A DNA stretch of 64,000 nt from Komagataeibacter melaceti (GTDB lineage Bacteria > Pseudomonadota > Alphaproteobacteria > Acetobacterales > Acetobacteraceae), in contig NZ_QUWV01000041.1 in NCBI RefSeq assembly GCF_003403295.1, positions 1-64,000 of the forward strand. The letters are read 5' to 3'. Numbering within the stretch: the stretch's first letter is position 1; each line of letters opens with the position of its first letter. Both the position numbers and the translations under genes were made by a program. Of this stretch, positions 31,483 through 61,462 are shown piece by piece. A model generated the notes under the pieces. It worked only from the letters and a program-made list of their open reading frames with translations, was not told the origin of the DNA and made no database searches.

Positions 31483-32415
31483 TTAATTATTGGGCACTTT
31501 ATTGGTCACTTGCTCATTCCATCGGCGATGAAGCCACAGCCAACTGCCCGGATATTGGCGTATCGTGCTTTCAAGCCAGTCATTGACCATCTGGGTCAGG
31601 TTCATCTGGTCCTGTGCGCGGTTGCCACTGGCGGGCAGGTCGAGGGGCGGGTGAACATGAATACGCAGCCGTGCCGGTCCCAGCCGCTCCACATAACCGG
31701 GAATGACCGGACAGCGCAGCTTGATCGCCATGGCCGCCATGGCACCTGCCGTCATGGCGGGCAGGCCGAAGAACCGGGCGGCCACGCCGTCATTCATCTT
31801 CTGGTCCACCAGCATGCCCAGGTGTCCGCCCCTGAGAATATGCGCAAGCGCCCCCCGTGCTCCATGCGCCCCCTTGGCAAACAGGGGCACCGGCTGGCCC
31901 ATGGCCTGATCCCGCAGGTCGCGCAGGATCGTATCGACCAGCGGATTGTTGGGCGCACGGTAGAACGAGGAGAACGGCAGCCCGTAACGCGCCACGGCGG
32001 GGGGCAGCATCTCCCAGTTGCCGATATGGCCTGATACGAAAATGGTCGGTCCGCCCCGCGCCGCCTGTGCGCGGAGGTGTTCTTCCCCCACCACATCCCA
32101 TCCCGGCCCGCTGGCCGGATTGTGTGGCAGGGTGGACAGGTGCGGGAATTCACCGGCATTGCGGCCGATATTGTCCCACATGTCGCGGATGATGCGCTGG
32201 CGCGCCCCGGCATCAAGTTCCGGCATGACCATGCGCAGGTTGGCATCCGCGATGCGGGATACGGGCAGCCGTGGTCCCACCGTGCGGCACAGCCATCCGC
32301 CAAGGTTGGAAGCCCGGACCGGGCCGATGCGGCGGAAAAGGGCTACAAGCCAGCGCACCAGCAATGCTTCCAGTCGCATCTGCCGGGTTGGGGGTAGGGA
32401 AGGTTTGTCCGTCAT
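31483..32415 (-). CDS. lpxL: Lipid A late acyltransferase (LpxL/HtrB family)
   Basis: A 310-residue inner membrane acyltransferase that adds a secondary acyl chain to Kdo-lipid A. It shows the H-x4-E motif in SGHIGNWEM, then FSSFYRAPNNPLVDTIL, LRGGHLGMLVDQKMNDGVAARFFG-type sequence and PVIPGYVERL. The ATG overlaps the lpxK stop as ATGA, indicating coupling. It is last in waaA-lpxK-lpxL. Acyl-chain length is not predictable. A T-run (TTTTTTT on the minus strand) lies about 25 bases after the stop and may help terminate. Confidence 0.88.
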   Translation of the reverse strand: MTDKPSLPPTRQMRLEALLVRWLVALFRRIGPVRASNLGGWLCRTVGPRLPVSRIADANLRMVMPELDAGARQRIIRDMWDNIGRNAGEFPHLSTLPHNPASGPGWDVVGEEHLRAQAARGGPTIFVSGHIGNWEMLPPAVARYGLPFSSFYRAPNNPLVDTILRDLRDQAMGQPVPLFAKGAHGARGALAHILRGGHLGMLVDQKMNDGVAARFFGLPAMTAGAMAAMAIKLRCPVIPGYVERLGPARLRIHVHPPLDLPASGNRAQDQMNLTQMVNDWLESTIRQYPGSWLWLHRRWNEQVTNKVPNN

Positions 32416-33401
32416 CCGTTTTCCGTCCTGCCCAGCCATTGCTCCAGTATGTGTTCCGGCATGGCCGGAGTGGCCCATGCCAGTTGAAGACCGACCGTGT
32501 GCACCTGCGCGCGAAAGGGCGGGGGCAGGCGTACGGCGTCCTTCTCGGTCGTGACGAGGCTGGCGTTCCATTTCGCCGCCAGCGCCAGCAGTCGCCCGCG
32601 CTCGGCTGCGGTATAGACATGATGGTCGGCAAAGGCGAGACAGCGGAGCGGCTCGATGCCACAGCGGGCCAGCCCGTCAAAAAACTTGGCGGGCCGCCCG
32701 ATTCCGGCAAAGGCGATGACCGGCATGTCACGCGGCACATTGTCCGTCGTCTCGCGCAGCGTGGCGGCCAGGCAGGGCAGGGCGAAAGGCGCGGAAGCCC
32801 CGATACCCAGCCGGTCGGGACCGATCACGACCAGCGCGCTGGCCCGCGCCAGCCCCACCATGGCGGGTTCACGCAAGGGGCCTGCGGGCAGGACGCGCCC
32901 GTTGCCAAAGCCCGTCTGGCCATCCACCACCACAAGGCTCATGTCCTGCTGGAGTGTGGGGTTCTGGAACCCGTCATCCATAAGCAGGCAGTCTGCGCCA
33001 TCCCTTATGGCCATGCGTGCCGTAACCGCACGGTCCGCGCCCACGTAGCATGGCGCGATGCGGACCAGCAGCAGCGGTTCATCACCCACGTCGGCTGCGC
33101 AGTGGCGTGTGGGATCGACCCGTGTTCCGGCCGCGACGCGTCCCCCATGGCCACGGGACAGGATGGCGGGCCTGCGCCCGCGTGCAATGGCGCGCCGGGC
33201 CAGATCCAGCACCAGCGGTGTCTTGCCGGTTCCGCCCACGCTGATATTGCCGCAGCACAGTACGGGGACCGGCGCTTTCCATCCCGCTTGTCGCAGGCGG
33301 CGGGCCGTACCCTGCGCATACAGGTAAGCAAATGGCGAAAGCAGGCGCGCAGCCAGTCCGGCATGTTCAGGTGCCTGCCACCAGAATGAAGGCGCGCGCA
33401 T
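32412..33401 (-). CDS. lpxK: Tetraacyldisaccharide 4'-kinase
   Basis: A 329-residue membrane-associated P-loop kinase that phosphorylates the 4' position of lipid A disaccharide. Seen: PVLCCGNISVGGTGKTPLVL (Walker A), RPAILSRGHGG, VGDEPLLLVRIAPCYVGADR, CLLMDDGFQNPTLQQDMSLV (Walker B) and VIAFAGIGRPAKFFDGL. ATG 33401 shares one base with the waaA stop (TGATG). Confidence 0.94.
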   Translation of the reverse strand: MRAPSFWWQAPEHAGLAARLLSPFAYLYAQGTARRLRQAGWKAPVPVLCCGNISVGGTGKTPLVLDLARRAIARGRRPAILSRGHGGRVAAGTRVDPTRHCAADVGDEPLLLVRIAPCYVGADRAVTARMAIRDGADCLLMDDGFQNPTLQQDMSLVVVDGQTGFGNGRVLPAGPLREPAMVGLARASALVVIGPDRLGIGASAPFALPCLAATLRETTDNVPRDMPVIAFAGIGRPAKFFDGLARCGIEPLRCLAFADHHVYTAAERGRLLALAAKWNASLVTTEKDAVRLPPPFRAQVHTVGLQLAWATPAMPEHILEQWLGRTENG

Positions 33402-34711
33402 CAGGTGCGGCCCAGTGCAATCAGGGCCTGCGCCACCTGCCGGGCAATATCGGGGTCGGGCAGCACATGGCGGCGGGCAGCAGCACCTGCGGCTTCGGGC
33501 GCATCTTCCTGCCTGAGCAGCGAGAGAACCCATGCCGCAATGTCCTGTGCGGTCGTGACATGGCGCACGCTGTCGCCCAGCCGGGCATAGGCCTGACGGA
33601 AATTATCCGTCTTCGGCCCACTGGCCAGCGCGCAGCCCGCACGTGCGGGTTCCACAGGGTTGTGGCCACCACCGGCACAGCCGGGCAGGCTGTTGCCCAG
33701 CAGTACCGGGGCGGTTAGGGCGTAGAACAGGCCGGTCTCGCCCAGCGTGTCGCATATCCATACTGCGTCCCGTGGCGTGGGAGCCTGCCCTAGCGAGCGG
33801 CGGGGTATGGGGTTGTCGGACAGGGCGGCGACTTCCGCGCCCCGCTGGGGGTGACGGGGGATGATGATGGTCAGCACATCGGGCATGGCCTGCCGGATCA
33901 GGTCGGCGGTGTGGAGGATTTCCGCCTCCTCGCCCGGATGGGTCGAAGCCGCGATCCAGACCGGTCGCCCGGCAAGGGTGCGGCGCAGTTCGTCCAGCGC
34001 CGCTGCGTCATAGGGCAGGGGGCCGGTTGCATCCTTCAGGTCCGCGATCAGGTCGATCCTGTTCGCGCCGCCTTGCAGCAGGCGGCGGGCGTCTTCCGTG
34101 CTGCGGGCCATGACCCATGCGAGGCTGGACAGCATCCGGTGCAGCAGGCATGCCGCCCTGCGCCATCCCGCCAGTGAGCGATCCGACATCCGCCCGCTGA
34201 GCAGGGCGACCGGAATGCGCCGCGCAACACAGGCCGCGATCAGGTTGGGCCAGAGTTCGCTTTCCACCAGTGCGGCCACATCAGGCCGCCAGAAATCCAC
34301 GAACCGCGCAACCCAGCGCGGCACGTCCAGCGGGGCGAACTGATGGTGGACCCGTTCATGACCCGGCAGGTCACGCAGGCGGGCATGCAGGATTTCCGCA
34401 CCCGAGATGGTGCCGGTCGTGATCAGGACATGCTGTGACGGGCGGGTAAGGAGAACCTGCGCGATAACGGGCACGACCGCCACCGTCTCGCCCACGCTTG
34501 CGGCATGCAGCCAGACCAGCGGGCCGGATGGCCGTGGGCATTGGGCAAAACCGCGGCGCTGCGGCAGGCAGGCAGCGATTTCCTTGCCGCGCCGTACCCG
34601 CAGCCGCAGGTTAAGGCGCAGCGCCGGGGCCAGTAGCATGGCCAGACCGCGCCACCCGGCCCCAAGAATGGCACCGCACGCGCGCTGCCGCAGTCGGGCG
34701 GAACGGGTCAT
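33401..34711 (-). CDS. waaA: 3-deoxy-D-manno-octulosonic acid transferase
   Basis: A 436-residue family 30 glycosyltransferase adding Kdo to lipid IVA. Evidence: PLVWLHAASVGETVAVVPVI, LITTGTISGAEILHARL, HQFAPLDVPRWVARFVDFWRP-type region, ALVESELWPNLIAACVARRI, STHPGEEAEIL, IIPRHPQRGAEV and GGHNPVEPARAG. ATG 34711 is the first in-frame ATG; a GTG at 34759 gives a 16-residue extension. It is the first gene of the lpx group on this strand. Whether it adds one or two Kdo units cannot be read from the sequence. Confidence 0.93.
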   Translation of the reverse strand: MTRSARLRQRACGAILGAGWRGLAMLLAPALRLNLRLRVRRGKEIAACLPQRRGFAQCPRPSGPLVWLHAASVGETVAVVPVIAQVLLTRPSQHVLITTGTISGAEILHARLRDLPGHERVHHQFAPLDVPRWVARFVDFWRPDVAALVESELWPNLIAACVARRIPVALLSGRMSDRSLAGWRRAACLLHRMLSSLAWVMARSTEDARRLLQGGANRIDLIADLKDATGPLPYDAAALDELRRTLAGRPVWIAASTHPGEEAEILHTADLIRQAMPDVLTIIIPRHPQRGAEVAALSDNPIPRRSLGQAPTPRDAVWICDTLGETGLFYALTAPVLLGNSLPGCAGGGHNPVEPARAGCALASGPKTDNFRQAYARLGDSVRHVTTAQDIAAWVLSLLRQEDAPEAAGAAARRHVLPDPDIARQVAQALIALGRT

Positions 34712-34862
34712 GCCTGTATCAGGGAAAAGACAGGAAGGCGCATAACCCTGCGGTAACACGCCTCATGATGCCGGAAAAGGATATGTATTCCGTCTTCCGG
34801 CACGGGCGGGAAGGAAACCGGCGCATGCACGCGGCATGTCCGGTCTGGCCTTCCTGCGGGTT

Positions 34863-57964: not shown

Positions 57965-58915
57965 ATGACCCATTCCCCGGCCCCCGCGACCGTGATCGCC
58001 GCAGACCTTGCCGGCATGCGTTCCCAGACCTTCGGGCTGGCGCGCCGTGCCGGGCTGGAACCCCACCTGCACGCGCTGGTTCCCCGTGGGCTGTGGCGAC
58101 GCATGCCCGCCGCATGGTGGCCTGCGCCGCTTCGCGCGGTGGAACCACTGGATCTGCCCGCTGATTACCGGGACCATCCCGTCATCAGCATCGGTGGGAG
58201 CGGGGGCGCGGTGGGGGCGGCGCTGCGGCGGCAGGGCGCGCGTGTCATACAGGTGCAGAACCCCCGCCTGTCGCCCGCGCGGTTCGATCTGGTCATTGCC
58301 AACCGCCATGACCAGATTTCCGGCCCCAATGTGGTGCTGACCCGCACCGCACTGCATGGCGTGACAGCGCATGTGCTTGAACAGGCGCGGCAGGAATGGG
58401 CGCCCCGGCTTGCCCATCTGCCCCGGCCGCTGGTGGCGGTGCTGGTGGGGGGCGGTAATGGCCGCTTCCGGCTGGGACAGGCGGAGGGGGCGACCCTTGC
58501 AGGGCAACTGGCCACCATGATGCGCCGTGACCGCGTGGGGCTGGCGCTGACGCCATCCCGCCGGACTGACCCGGCGGTCTGTGCGGAACTGCACCACGCG
58601 CTGGACGGGGCGGGGGCGTGGATATGGGACCAGACCGGCCCCAACCCCTATCTCGGCCTGCTGGCCTGCGCGGATGCCATTGTGGTGACGATGGATAGCG
58701 TGTCCATGGTGTCGGAAGCGGTGGCGACGGCCGCGCCGGTCATGGTGGCGGCCCTGCCGGGCAGGTCGCGGCGTATCGGGCATTTCCTGCATGACCTGAC
58801 GCAGGCGGGCCGTATCCGCCCCTTTGCCGGGCGGCTGGAAACATGGCCCGTCACCCCGCTGGATGATACCGAAATCGCGGCCGAGGCGGTGCGGCAGTGC
58901 CTTGGGGCCGGGTAA
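57965..58915 (+). CDS. Elm1-family protein (mitochondrial-fission-ELM1-like, GT-B fold)
   Basis: A 316-residue protein of the ELM1 family seen in plants and alphaproteobacteria. Diagnostic stretches: ISIGGSGGAVGAALRR, QVQNPRLSPARFDLVIANRH, NVVLTRTALHGVT, VAVLVGGGNGRF and VTMDSVSMVSEAVATAAPVM. The C-terminal half resembles nucleotide-sugar-binding GT-B domains. In bacteria the function is unknown. ATG 57965. It is divergent from the helicase gene and followed by the 629-aa protein. Confidence 0.82.
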   Translation: MTHSPAPATVIAADLAGMRSQTFGLARRAGLEPHLHALVPRGLWRRMPAAWWPAPLRAVEPLDLPADYRDHPVISIGGSGGAVGAALRRQGARVIQVQNPRLSPARFDLVIANRHDQISGPNVVLTRTALHGVTAHVLEQARQEWAPRLAHLPRPLVAVLVGGGNGRFRLGQAEGATLAGQLATMMRRDRVGLALTPSRRTDPAVCAELHHALDGAGAWIWDQTGPNPYLGLLACADAIVVTMDSVSMVSEAVATAAPVMVAALPGRSRRIGHFLHDLTQAGRIRPFAGRLETWPVTPLDDTEIAAEAVRQCLGAG

Positions 58916-58965
58916 TGATACAATAACGCTCCCCCTTGGGCGGAGAGTGGAATAGAACTGGCCTC

Positions 58966-60855
58966 ATGCTCGGTATTCGAACCTTTGATCCGCAGGCTGG
59001 CGGCAATATGGCCTACAAGGCCCTGACCCACCCATGGGCAGCGGAAAAACTTGCCCTTCTGGCAGCCGATCTTGCGCAGGGTGGTCCGGTTGCGATCTAT
59101 GACCCGCACGGGATCGCGCAGACCGCACTGGCGCTGCTGCCTGCCCGCATTGCGGTGGCTGGCGTGTACACCCATGATTCGCTTCGGGTCGGGCAACCAT
59201 GTGGCGACATGACCCTGCTGGCGCTGGCCGATCTGCCGCGTACCCCGGCAAAAACCGTATGGGCGCTGGATTTCCGCCACGGGGTTATGGAAAACCGGCT
59301 GTCGGACCTGTTACCCGCGGGCGGCAGGCTGCGCACGCTGGCGGAGGTGCGCCTGCCCGGGAACATGCTGTCGGTCGCGCATGACTATCTCGACGGGCTG
59401 AATTTCGCCACCAACCTCGCTTTTTTCCGTGATACGGCGGAATTTTCCACCCGGCTGGTCTCGGCCAATTACTGGTCACGTTACGGCGCGGACAACGTGC
59501 GCTTCTGGCTGCGGCTGTACGATCAGGCCGGGCAGGTGCTGCATACGTGGGAGGAGGCGGTTCCGCGCGCGGGGCAGGCCATCATCCTTGACAGCGCGGA
59601 GATACGCCAGCGCTTCGGCCTGCCTGAATTCACGGGGCAACTGTTCATCCATGCGATGGGAATCGCCGGGCACGACGTGGTCAAATACGCGCTGGAAACG
59701 CGCGGGCGGGGGGATAACCCCAGCCTGTCGGTCACGCATGACGCCAATGCCTGGCCTGCCGCGCGTTACGCCAACCTGCCTGCGCCCGGCCTGGGGGAGG
59801 ACGTGGTGCTCTGGCTCCAGAACAGTCACGCCCTGCCCGTGGCGTCCGGTGACATGAGCCTCAACCGCATGGGAAGCGAGCGGCACATCCCCATTGCCCG
59901 CGCCCTTGCGCCCTACGAGACCGTGGCCGTGCATATGGGCGACATCATGCCCGATCTGGCATGGCCCGAGCAGATTGAACTGCGTGCCGGTGGCCATGTC
60001 GTGCGCCCGCGCTACGAAATTACGCAGCGCCACCGCACCCGTATCGCGCACCTGAACGTGGAGCGTGCCGACCTGCGGCCTGACCCCGGCATTGAAAAGC
60101 TGGATTCGCGGTTTTTCGGGCGGGGTTACCTGCTGCCATTTCCGGTGCCGGACCCCGCGCGCTACCGCACGCTCGTCCTGCCAGCCCCCATGGCTGAAAA
60201 CCTTGATGACCTGCCGGTGCGGATAGACTGCTTCGATGCGGAGGGGAAAGGGGCCGGATTGCACTTCATGGGCCGCCTGCCGCGCGACCACGCCACGGTG
60301 TGCGATGTCAGTGAACTCATGGCGGCGGAGGGGCATGGGGAACTGGTCTATGACTTCCGCGATGGCGGGCAGGCCGATGGCTGGCTGCATGCCCTGATCC
60401 GGTATGAGGACCGCAGGACCGGGCACGTGGCCGAAACCAGCTTCGGTGCGCATATATTCAATACCGTCATGACCTATCGTGGTGAGCCGCAATCCTATGT
60501 CGGCCCGCCACCGGGGCTGTCCACCCGGCTGTTCCTGACGGCGGCGATTGCCGAACCGTTCAGCTTCTGCACCCTTATCTACCCGTCCTCCGCATCATGG
60601 CGGCCATGTTCGGATACGTCGCTCTACCTGCATGCGGCCGATGGCACGGTGGTTGCACAGGAAAAGGTCACCGTGCCCCAGTCAGGCTCCCGTGCGATCT
60701 GGCCCCACAGGATATTCGGGGAGGCAGCCTTGCTGCGCGCGGGTGAGGGTGCCTATGTCATCATCCGTGACACGACATGCCGCCTGTTTGGCTACCACGG
60801 CCGCATGATGGGGCAGGATGGCCGTTTTTCGGTCGATCACATGTTCGGATTCTGA
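58966..60855 (+). CDS. Unrecognised 629-aa protein with Rossmann-like N-terminus and repeated beta domains
   Basis: I cannot assign a known family. Residues about 38-105 (GGPVAIYDPHGIAQTALALL, then VAGVYTHDSLRVG and VWALDF) look like a Rossmann-type alpha/beta domain without a Gly-rich loop. The rest appears to be four related beta-rich units (about 160-255, 275-360, 410-520, 530-629), each with a strand of the L-L-D--G type followed by a VP/LPRD turn (WLRLYDQAGQVLHTWEEAVP; VRIDCFDAEGKGAG; LYLHAADGTVVAQEKVTVP). It ends FSVDHMFGF. No signal peptide, no TM segment. ATG 58966 is the first reasonable start; ATG at 59008 is an alternative. It lies between the Elm1 gene (50 bases) and a 127-aa protein (88 bases), possibly one operon. 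Confidence 0.8.
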   Translation: MLGIRTFDPQAGGNMAYKALTHPWAAEKLALLAADLAQGGPVAIYDPHGIAQTALALLPARIAVAGVYTHDSLRVGQPCGDMTLLALADLPRTPAKTVWALDFRHGVMENRLSDLLPAGGRLRTLAEVRLPGNMLSVAHDYLDGLNFATNLAFFRDTAEFSTRLVSANYWSRYGADNVRFWLRLYDQAGQVLHTWEEAVPRAGQAIILDSAEIRQRFGLPEFTGQLFIHAMGIAGHDVVKYALETRGRGDNPSLSVTHDANAWPAARYANLPAPGLGEDVVLWLQNSHALPVASGDMSLNRMGSERHIPIARALAPYETVAVHMGDIMPDLAWPEQIELRAGGHVVRPRYEITQRHRTRIAHLNVERADLRPDPGIEKLDSRFFGRGYLLPFPVPDPARYRTLVLPAPMAENLDDLPVRIDCFDAEGKGAGLHFMGRLPRDHATVCDVSELMAAEGHGELVYDFRDGGQADGWLHALIRYEDRRTGHVAETSFGAHIFNTVMTYRGEPQSYVGPPPGLSTRLFLTAAIAEPFSFCTLIYPSSASWRPCSDTSLYLHAADGTVVAQEKVTVPQSGSRAIWPHRIFGEAALLRAGEGAYVIIRDTTCRLFGYHGRMMGQDGRFSVDHMFGF

Positions 60856-60943
60856 TCATGCGTGCTGACATGCCGAACGGGACATATATGCCAGCCCCCG
60901 CGGGCACCATCGCCCCGCCAGTCAAACGGAGCCCGGATGCGCC

Positions 60944-61327
60944 ATGATCGTACAGGACACCAATTTTTTCTGTGACATGCCCGAGGACATGAAATACCTG
61001 CGCGACCGTAATCCGCCGGGCAATTTCATCGAGCAGAACATGATTTTCGTTCTGCCTGACCGGCTGCGCAAATTCCGCCGGAACCTCTTTCACGTGCGGC
61101 GCACGGATTCGGATGCCACGGTCTATGCGCCGCTGTTCCGTATCCGCTGCATAAGCGCGTCAGACCCGGTGCCGGAGGGGTATGACGGCCCGTTCGACGT
61201 ATTTCCGTTCTACACCAATCCCACCCGCAAGCGGCGGCGGACGCTGGATTACTATGTGCTGTTCCTGTTTCAGGACAAGCTGTCCTATGTCCGGTGCCGC
61301 GATGCGCTCGGGCAGGTCCCGGCGTAA
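60944..61327 (+). CDS. Unrecognised 127-aa protein downstream of the repeat protein
   Basis: A basic, aromatic-rich protein: MIVQDTNFFCDMPEDMKYLR, then FHVRRTDSDATVYAPLFRI, PFDVFPFYTNPTRKRRRTLD and a hydrophobic YYVLFLFQDKLSYVRC. It has no signal peptide and no full TM helix. I do not recognise the family. Same strand as, and 88 bases after, the 629-aa protein; the composition (many Phe, Tyr, Arg) is unlike a random frame in GC-rich DNA. Confidence 0.65.
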   Translation: MIVQDTNFFCDMPEDMKYLRDRNPPGNFIEQNMIFVLPDRLRKFRRNLFHVRRTDSDATVYAPLFRIRCISASDPVPEGYDGPFDVFPFYTNPTRKRRRTLDYYVLFLFQDKLSYVRCRDALGQVPA

Positions 61328-61387: not shown

Positions 61388-61462
61388 TGGTGGGTGCGAC
61401 AGGGATTGAACCTGTGACCCCCGCCGTGTGAAGGCGATGCTCTACCGCTGAGCTACGCACCC
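61388..61462 (-). tRNA. tRNA-Val (anticodon CAC)
   Basis: Read on the minus strand: acceptor GGGTGCG/CGCACCC, D arm AGCTCAGCGGTAGAGC, anticodon stem TCGCC/GGCGG around TTCACAC (anticodon CAC, reads GTG), T arm ACAGG-TTCAATC-CCTGT, discriminator A and encoded CCA. All arms pair. Confidence 0.96.

Follow-up and report, generated by a model that had tools for sequence, protein, structure and literature searches.

What does a highly conserved protein without a family model do beside a gene of the Elm1 family? The question is raised by a locus of the acetic acid bacterium Komagataeibacter melaceti, within a stretch of 64,000 nucleotides that was analysed as a whole (contig NZ_QUWV01000041.1, positions 1 to 64,000 of the forward strand; hereafter, the window), in which the Elm1 gene is followed on the same strand by a gene for a 629-amino-acid (aa) protein, here called Q629. 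Q629 is a real conserved gene family that lacks a model and stands beside a transferase family with one newly found function. We tentatively propose that the two genes form an envelope unit, in which a KdoT-like glycosyltransferase of the lipopolysaccharide (LPS) core works with a dedicated cytosolic partner that binds or acts on sugar, a reading we consider plausible while stopping short of calling it probable. A preliminary description of this DNA had grouped the pair with a third gene, for a 127-aa protein, and all three open reading frames (ORFs) are open. The features of the pair are as follows.

57965..58915, plus strand: Elm1 (gene 1), KdoT-like glycosyltransferase, 316 aa, by match to PF06258
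Elm1 residues 198-201, plus strand: SRRT motif, from the sequence
58966..60855, plus strand: Q629 (gene 2), 629 aa, no assigned family, probably cytosolic, from the ORF, an AlphaFold2 model and homologue counts
58966..59355, plus strand: Q629 residues 1-130, conserved GGN..YK..HP segment and predicted Rossmann-like domain, from alignment and AlphaFold2
59749..60069, plus strand: Q629 residues 262-368, beta domain 2, predicted TM1070/ASRT fold, from VIA-align
60517..60801, plus strand: Q629 residues 518-612, beta domain 4, predicted ASRT-type fold, from a separate AlphaFold2 model and VIA-align

Gene 1 had been assigned to the Elm1 family, an assignment borne out by its Pfam match to PF06258 (Mito_fiss_Elm1), with an E-value of 3.9e-90 and 302.5 bits against a cut-off of 27 over residues 16-311; an NCBIfam scan of Elm1 returned no match. 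The accompanying statement that no function is defined for bacterial Elm1 proteins is outdated for the family. According to a study from December 2025 (PMC12856342), to which all our statements about KdoT refer, the Acinetobacter baumannii protein KdoT, which carries the label “ELM1-like mitochondrial fission protein”, is a proven transferase of 3-deoxy-D-manno-oct-2-ulosonic acid (Kdo), moving a third Kdo from cytidine monophosphate (CMP)-Kdo onto Kdo2-lipid IVA in the inner core of lipooligosaccharide. This result supports the glycan or envelope direction suggested earlier for the locus. KdoT has a glycosyltransferase B (GT-B) fold by model, and a Rickettsia homologue rescued core synthesis, while the membrane barrier was rescued partly only (PMC12856342).

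Elm1 and KdoT are both of the ELM1/PF06258 type and both carry the SRRT motif. In KdoT, replacing the second arginine of the motif (R180) by alanine harms function, whereas a change of the first (R179) does not (PMC12856342). Among the 51 Elm1 ORFs found at 61 Q629 loci, the serine, the second arginine and the threonine are present in 51/51 and the first arginine in 48/51, so that the order of conservation mirrors the severity of the KdoT mutants. Family and motif together suggest that Elm1 is a KdoT-type transferase, presumably with a GT-B fold.

The pairing of Elm1 with Q629 is conserved. In the window the two genes are separated by 50 bases, a scan of which gave no terminator-like site on the plus strand and a single one on the minus strand; such sites are no more numerous than expected by chance. 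In 43 of 47 distinct Acetobacteraceae genomes, Elm1 lies immediately upstream of Q629 on the same strand, the ends of the two matches being 10-123 bases apart. The 47 genomes include the window's own and represent 50 loci (three genomes twice), namely the 30 best matches and 20 loci picked for diversity from the 162 genomes with Q629. All four exceptions belong to genus g43 (Gluconacetobacter): two of them have Elm1 on the same strand, at 8.6 and 10.4 kb upstream, and the other two have it on another contig. At one such locus (L070:1-8590, genome G215), about 8.6 kb of partly sugar-related genes separates Elm1 from Q629, among them genes for a DegT aminotransferase, an ATP-grasp protein and a GFO/IDH/MocA oxidoreductase, together with one for a glycosyltransferase-like protein whose score falls below its cut-off. 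Loci from a genome collection, partly from the same genomes, show the two genes adjacent in 76 of 80, the remainder being three Gluconacetobacter loci (one with just 658 bases upstream) and one incomplete locus. At a further locus (L053:6630-8558, plus strand), the Elm1 ORF has an N-terminal extension of about 265 residues, for which Pfam gives no match, and overlaps the Q629 start by 8 bases.

Outside the Acetobacteraceae, we considered 40 genomes of 36 families; they were selected, as a rule one for each family, out of 83 in the class sample. In 31 of these 40, tblastn places Elm1 no more than 3 kb upstream on the same strand, and in the gene order of the 40 loci it falls within four ORFs of Q629 in 30 and is the next gene in 13. 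A frequent outer block reads carB-greA-Lrp-Elm1-(oxygenase)-Q629-trxB-LysR, the carB, greA and trxB clusters being named from one member each by NCBIfam. The pair stands within four ORFs in 16/17 loci that have all three of trxB, greA and carB, in 1/1 with two, in 5/9 with one and in 8/13 with none, and in 19 of 21 Acetobacteraceae loci, none of which has any of the three in the stretch fetched. Because it is kept in 19/21 and 8/13 loci without these neighbours, the pair often outlives its surroundings.

Co-occurrence points in the same direction. In the class sample of 385 alphaproteobacterial genomes, Elm1 is present in 314 overall, in 85 of the 86 with Q629 and in 229 of the 299 without it (Fisher p 6.8e-8), and the sole Q629 genome without Elm1 is 70% complete. 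Q629 is seldom found without Elm1, but Elm1 is often found without Q629. One of the 86 (G629, C18:28137-29385) holds Elm1 followed at once by an 85-position remnant of Q629 (profile positions 543-627) with one TAG; since this genome keeps Elm1 beside the remnant, Q629 can decay while Elm1 stays.

Q629 itself is confirmed to be without a family model, as neither it nor the 127-aa protein matches any Pfam or NCBIfam model up to E 1. When 33 Q629 members were scanned against Pfam to E 10, RskA_C appeared in 15 of them with a best value of 0.0022, which we judged to be chance; NCBIfam, the PDB sequences (profile search, best E 2.4) and plasmid records yielded nothing. Q629 was not met in the literature on ELM1, Mito_fiss_Elm1, KdoT, ASRT and ASRAH, where a text search cannot find an unnamed family, and ELM1 goes unmentioned, by term, in the main text of two Gluconobacter mutant-collection papers.

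The family is widespread in the class. Within the Acetobacteraceae family sample, 162 of 299 genomes carry Q629 (a single match in 153 and two in 9, several of them partial), and genomes of 1.9-2.0 Mb still keep it; in the class sample it is present in 86 of the 385 genomes (a single match in 82, two in 4), spanning 61 of 277 genera. In a phylum sample it was found in 1 of 185 genomes, the window's own; the alphaproteobacterial share of that sample is unknown, which makes this weak evidence for restriction to the class. Among the best 80 relatives, a list ranked by similarity that does not show the outer range, the closest titled ones are from K. saccharivorans (78%) and K. diospyri (76%). A metagenome-assembled genome titled Nitrosovibrio (L158), perhaps mislabelled or a mixed bin, encodes a Q629 that shares 55% identity with the window copy.

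Across the 60 other rows of a 61-row alignment, identity to the window protein ranges from 39 to 62%. At 102 of the 629 positions, at least 59 of the 61 rows carry the same residue, which is in many cases His, Asp, Arg, Asn, Tyr or Trp. As judged from this alignment, conservation is far more than chance. The near-invariant positions are unevenly spread: beta domains 1, 2, 3 and 4 account for 18, 24, 20 and 34 of them (96 in total), against five among residues 1-40 and a single one, D46, in the Rossmann-like part. Hydropathy reaches a 19-residue maximum of 1.5, and because neither a signal peptide nor a membrane segment is apparent by this measure, Q629 is probably cytosolic.

The AlphaFold2 model of Q629, built from a 33-row alignment, has a mean predicted local distance difference test (pLDDT) score of 88.5 and a predicted template modelling (pTM) score of 0.89. 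It comprises a Rossmann-like N-domain followed by four beta-sandwiches, in broad agreement with the domain layout read earlier from the letters; the supposed repeats, on the other hand, are not detectable in sequence, since hhalign between beta-domain slices found no convincing repeat (the best real pair, D1-D4, reached a probability of 33% over 27 columns, and the D2-D3 score arises from overlapping slices). In VIA-align, residues 39-138 resemble the Rex NAD domain (Z 7.0, root-mean-square deviation (rmsd) 4.1, 98 aligned) below the tool's trust level, and because this resemblance is too weak we assign no ligand to the N-domain. Beta domain 2 matched TM1070 (1nc7_B, length 116) at Z 10.4, rmsd 2.6 and 101 aligned residues, the next beta-sandwich being at 5.7. 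In a separate AlphaFold2 model of residues 366-629 (pLDDT 85.2), beta domain 4 matched the Anabaena sensory rhodopsin transducer (ASRT) 2ii9_C (Z 8.3, rmsd 2.9, 87/93 aligned) and 2ii8_F (Z 8.3, rmsd 2.6, 84/91 aligned; next row 5.3), with the caution that a Z near 8 may reflect only a common arrangement. Beta domain 3 returned weak lectin rows only (6kc2, Z 4.5, rmsd 3.6, 99 aligned). Whole-chain Foldseek retrieved tandem Ig-like proteins with TM-scores of at most 0.15 among the 50 rows listed; domains 3-4 alone retrieved beta domains of glycoside hydrolase family 2 (GH2), lectins and RbmA at query-normalised TM-scores of at most 0.24, which we did not use.

Two predicted domains of Q629 may therefore be said to point toward one small family, ASRT/TM1070, which belongs to the ASRAH superfamily (PF07100) and would share its beta-sandwich fold with domains 2 and 4. 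Domain 2 includes W263 and N286 among its near-invariant residues in the 61-row alignment; these may or may not correspond to the Trp that opens strand 1 and the Asn that closes strand 2 in ASRAH domains (PMC2739507). The fold has been proposed to bind sugars, its domains outside the single-domain branch come as dyads or tetrads, and an actinobacterial branch is linked, and once fused, to a glycosyltransferase (PMC2739507). ASRT is cytosolic, as Q629 probably is, and the four beta domains of Q629 recall the amidase-linked ASRAH tetrads. Unlike ASRT, Q629 has an N-terminal Rossmann-like domain and is linked to the Elm1 glycosyltransferase, and it shows neither sequence-profile similarity nor a PF07100 match among the 33 members scanned, nor the SHExxCxxN signature in any of 61 sequences (0/61). 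That signature marks the ASRT-like branch only and is also missing from other ASRAH branches (PMC2739507). No protein from Alphaproteobacteria that combines four such domains with a Rossmann-like part is mentioned in the main text of that survey. Because sequence-profile similarity is lacking, we describe Q629 as ASRT-like in fold only and do not file it as a member.

In the proposed unit, Elm1 would work as a KdoT-type GT-B enzyme on the cytoplasmic side of the inner membrane, extending the LPS inner core by a sugar that is probably Kdo or another ulosonic acid related to it. Q629 would be its dedicated cytosolic partner, a Rossmann-like domain joined to a single-chain array of four beta-sandwiches, at least two of them of the ASRT/TM1070 type, whose highly conserved residues may hold the donor sugar or the core under construction, and in this way place, permit or restrict the reaction of Elm1. 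Adjacency and co-occurrence argue for Q629 acting with Elm1, possibly as a physical partner, and the predicted fold is consistent with a sugar as its ligand. We also count in favour of the unit the genes that separate the pair at the Gluconacetobacter locus L070.

A third protein may join this step in some other Alphaproteobacteria. In 15 of the 40 outside loci (among L189-L227), a small protein family of about 210 aa is inserted between Elm1 and Q629, and the five of these 15 proteins that were scanned are 2-oxoglutarate (2OG)-Fe(II) oxygenases by PF13640/PF13661 only. One member has the PDB entry 9blq, a “putative hydroxylase”, as its best sequence match (E 1e-7). Speculatively, the oxygenase may hydroxylate the same product. 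We considered and rejected its identity as a Kdo hydroxylase: PF11004 (Kdo_hydroxy), which we take to represent the KdoO-type Kdo hydroxylases, was unmatched in the five scanned members, which match PF13640 instead. The inserted oxygenase and the KdoO-type enzymes have the 2OG-Fe(II) type in common. Separately, locus L201 (11886-12680, minus strand) has an extra 265-aa ORF adjoining the oxygenase that looks by eye like a second oxygenase and has no Pfam match. Ko-lipid A has been reported for Granulibacter and A. pasteurianus, with no tie to Elm1 in the accessible part of the source (PMC8036547).

Several results weigh against the proposed unit. In the family sample, Elm1 is present in 160 of 162 genomes with Q629 and in 132 of 137 without it (p 0.25, not significant), and the Fisher tests in both samples ignore phylogeny. 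Q629 is absent from 132 of the 292 Elm1-positive family genomes, and because many genomes hold Elm1 alone, it is not needed for Elm1 as such. Nine of the 40 outside loci have no same-strand upstream Elm1 within 3 kb. Beta-domain slices compared by hhalign with three alphaproteobacterial ASRT proteins gave probabilities below 1%. Finally, Kdo as the Elm1 donor is a guess, since PF06258 also holds the predicted A. baumannii outer-core transferases GtrOC1, GtrOC14, GtrOC19 and GtrOC22 (PMC4172580).

Among the alternatives, Q629 might itself be an enzyme that modifies the sugar added by Elm1, for example by hydrolysis, epimerisation or group transfer. Its active site would then be formed by the beta array, and a nucleotide or cofactor would sit in the Rossmann-like domain. 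We consider this unlikely, though worth weighing: 102 near-invariant positions out of 629, 96 of them in the beta domains, are more than one might expect a plain lectin to need, and a Rossmann-like domain is indeed present, but that domain is the least conserved part, with D46 as its one near-invariant residue, and Pfam, NCBIfam and the PDB sequences give no convincing enzyme-family match. It is slightly less likely that Elm1 uses a different donor sugar and that the pair acts on another surface glycan (outer core, capsule or exopolysaccharide). The four GtrOC transferases just mentioned favour this, as do the Gluconacetobacter genes inserted between the pair, which resemble surface-sugar genes; yet Q629 spans the class at no less than 39% identity and persists in genomes of 1.9-2.0 Mb, unlike variable outer glycans, and Elm1 keeps the SRRT signature of KdoT. 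That the adjacency is inherited gene order without a functional link, Q629 having an unrelated role, is improbable, for although trxB, greA and carB homologues are all present in 17 of the 40 outside loci, so that part of the adjacency signal is conserved order, and loci with one of them keep the pair in just 5/9, the pair survives without them as described above, and Q629 occurs without Elm1 in just 1/86 genomes.

Unlike the Elm1-Q629 pair, the 127-aa gene does not belong to the unit. Features of this gene and of its surroundings are given below.

60944..61327, plus strand: 127-aa protein (gene 3), open ORF without family match
61388-61462, minus strand: tRNA-Val (CAC), directly after the 127-aa gene, from the window
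33401..34759, minus strand: waaA, Kdo transferase, context only (PF04413, E 1.2e-53)
32412-33533, minus strand: lpxK, follows waaA (PF02606, E 5.5e-85)
31483-32571, minus strand: lipid A acyltransferase, follows waaA (PF03279, E 1.2e-39)

The 127-aa protein is found in 21 of the 299 family genomes, in eight genera and at scattered locations; its gene adjoins Q629 only in seven genomes of genus g1 (Komagataeibacter), and in genus g31 five genomes carry it without Q629. It is a separate, narrow Acetobacteraceae gene, and we excluded it as a third member. Of the three-gene arrangement first described, then, conservation in relatives holds for genes 1 and 2 and fails for gene 3. The waaA, lpxK and acyltransferase run lies about 23 kb from Elm1-Q629 in the same window, and waaA is the sole PF04413 match in the genome.

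A bolder form of our proposal, which we regard as speculative and rather doubtful, is that Q629 is an unrecognised, class-wide alphaproteobacterial factor of LPS-core assembly. Its sugar-binding domains of the ASRT type would form a pseudo-tetramer within one cytosolic chain, grip the nascent Kdo core or the CMP-ulosonic acid and make the Elm1/KdoT step productive in the cell, with the 2OG-Fe(II) oxygenase adding a hydroxyl in some lineages. The proposed need of Elm1 for Q629 can be likened to that of KdoT, which in vivo needs GnaT, a GT-4 enzyme, for a reason left unexplained in the accessible text of PMC12856342, where no Q629-like protein is mentioned. If our proposal is true, the Elm1 of most sampled Alphaproteobacteria (314/385) would be an LPS-core glycosyltransferase, and a highly conserved 629-residue protein without a family model would be its partner. 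What makes an ELM1-type Kdo transferase dependent on a partner in the cell, a question left open in PMC12856342, would become testable in a second group, and LPS assembly would gain an intracellular sugar-binding array.

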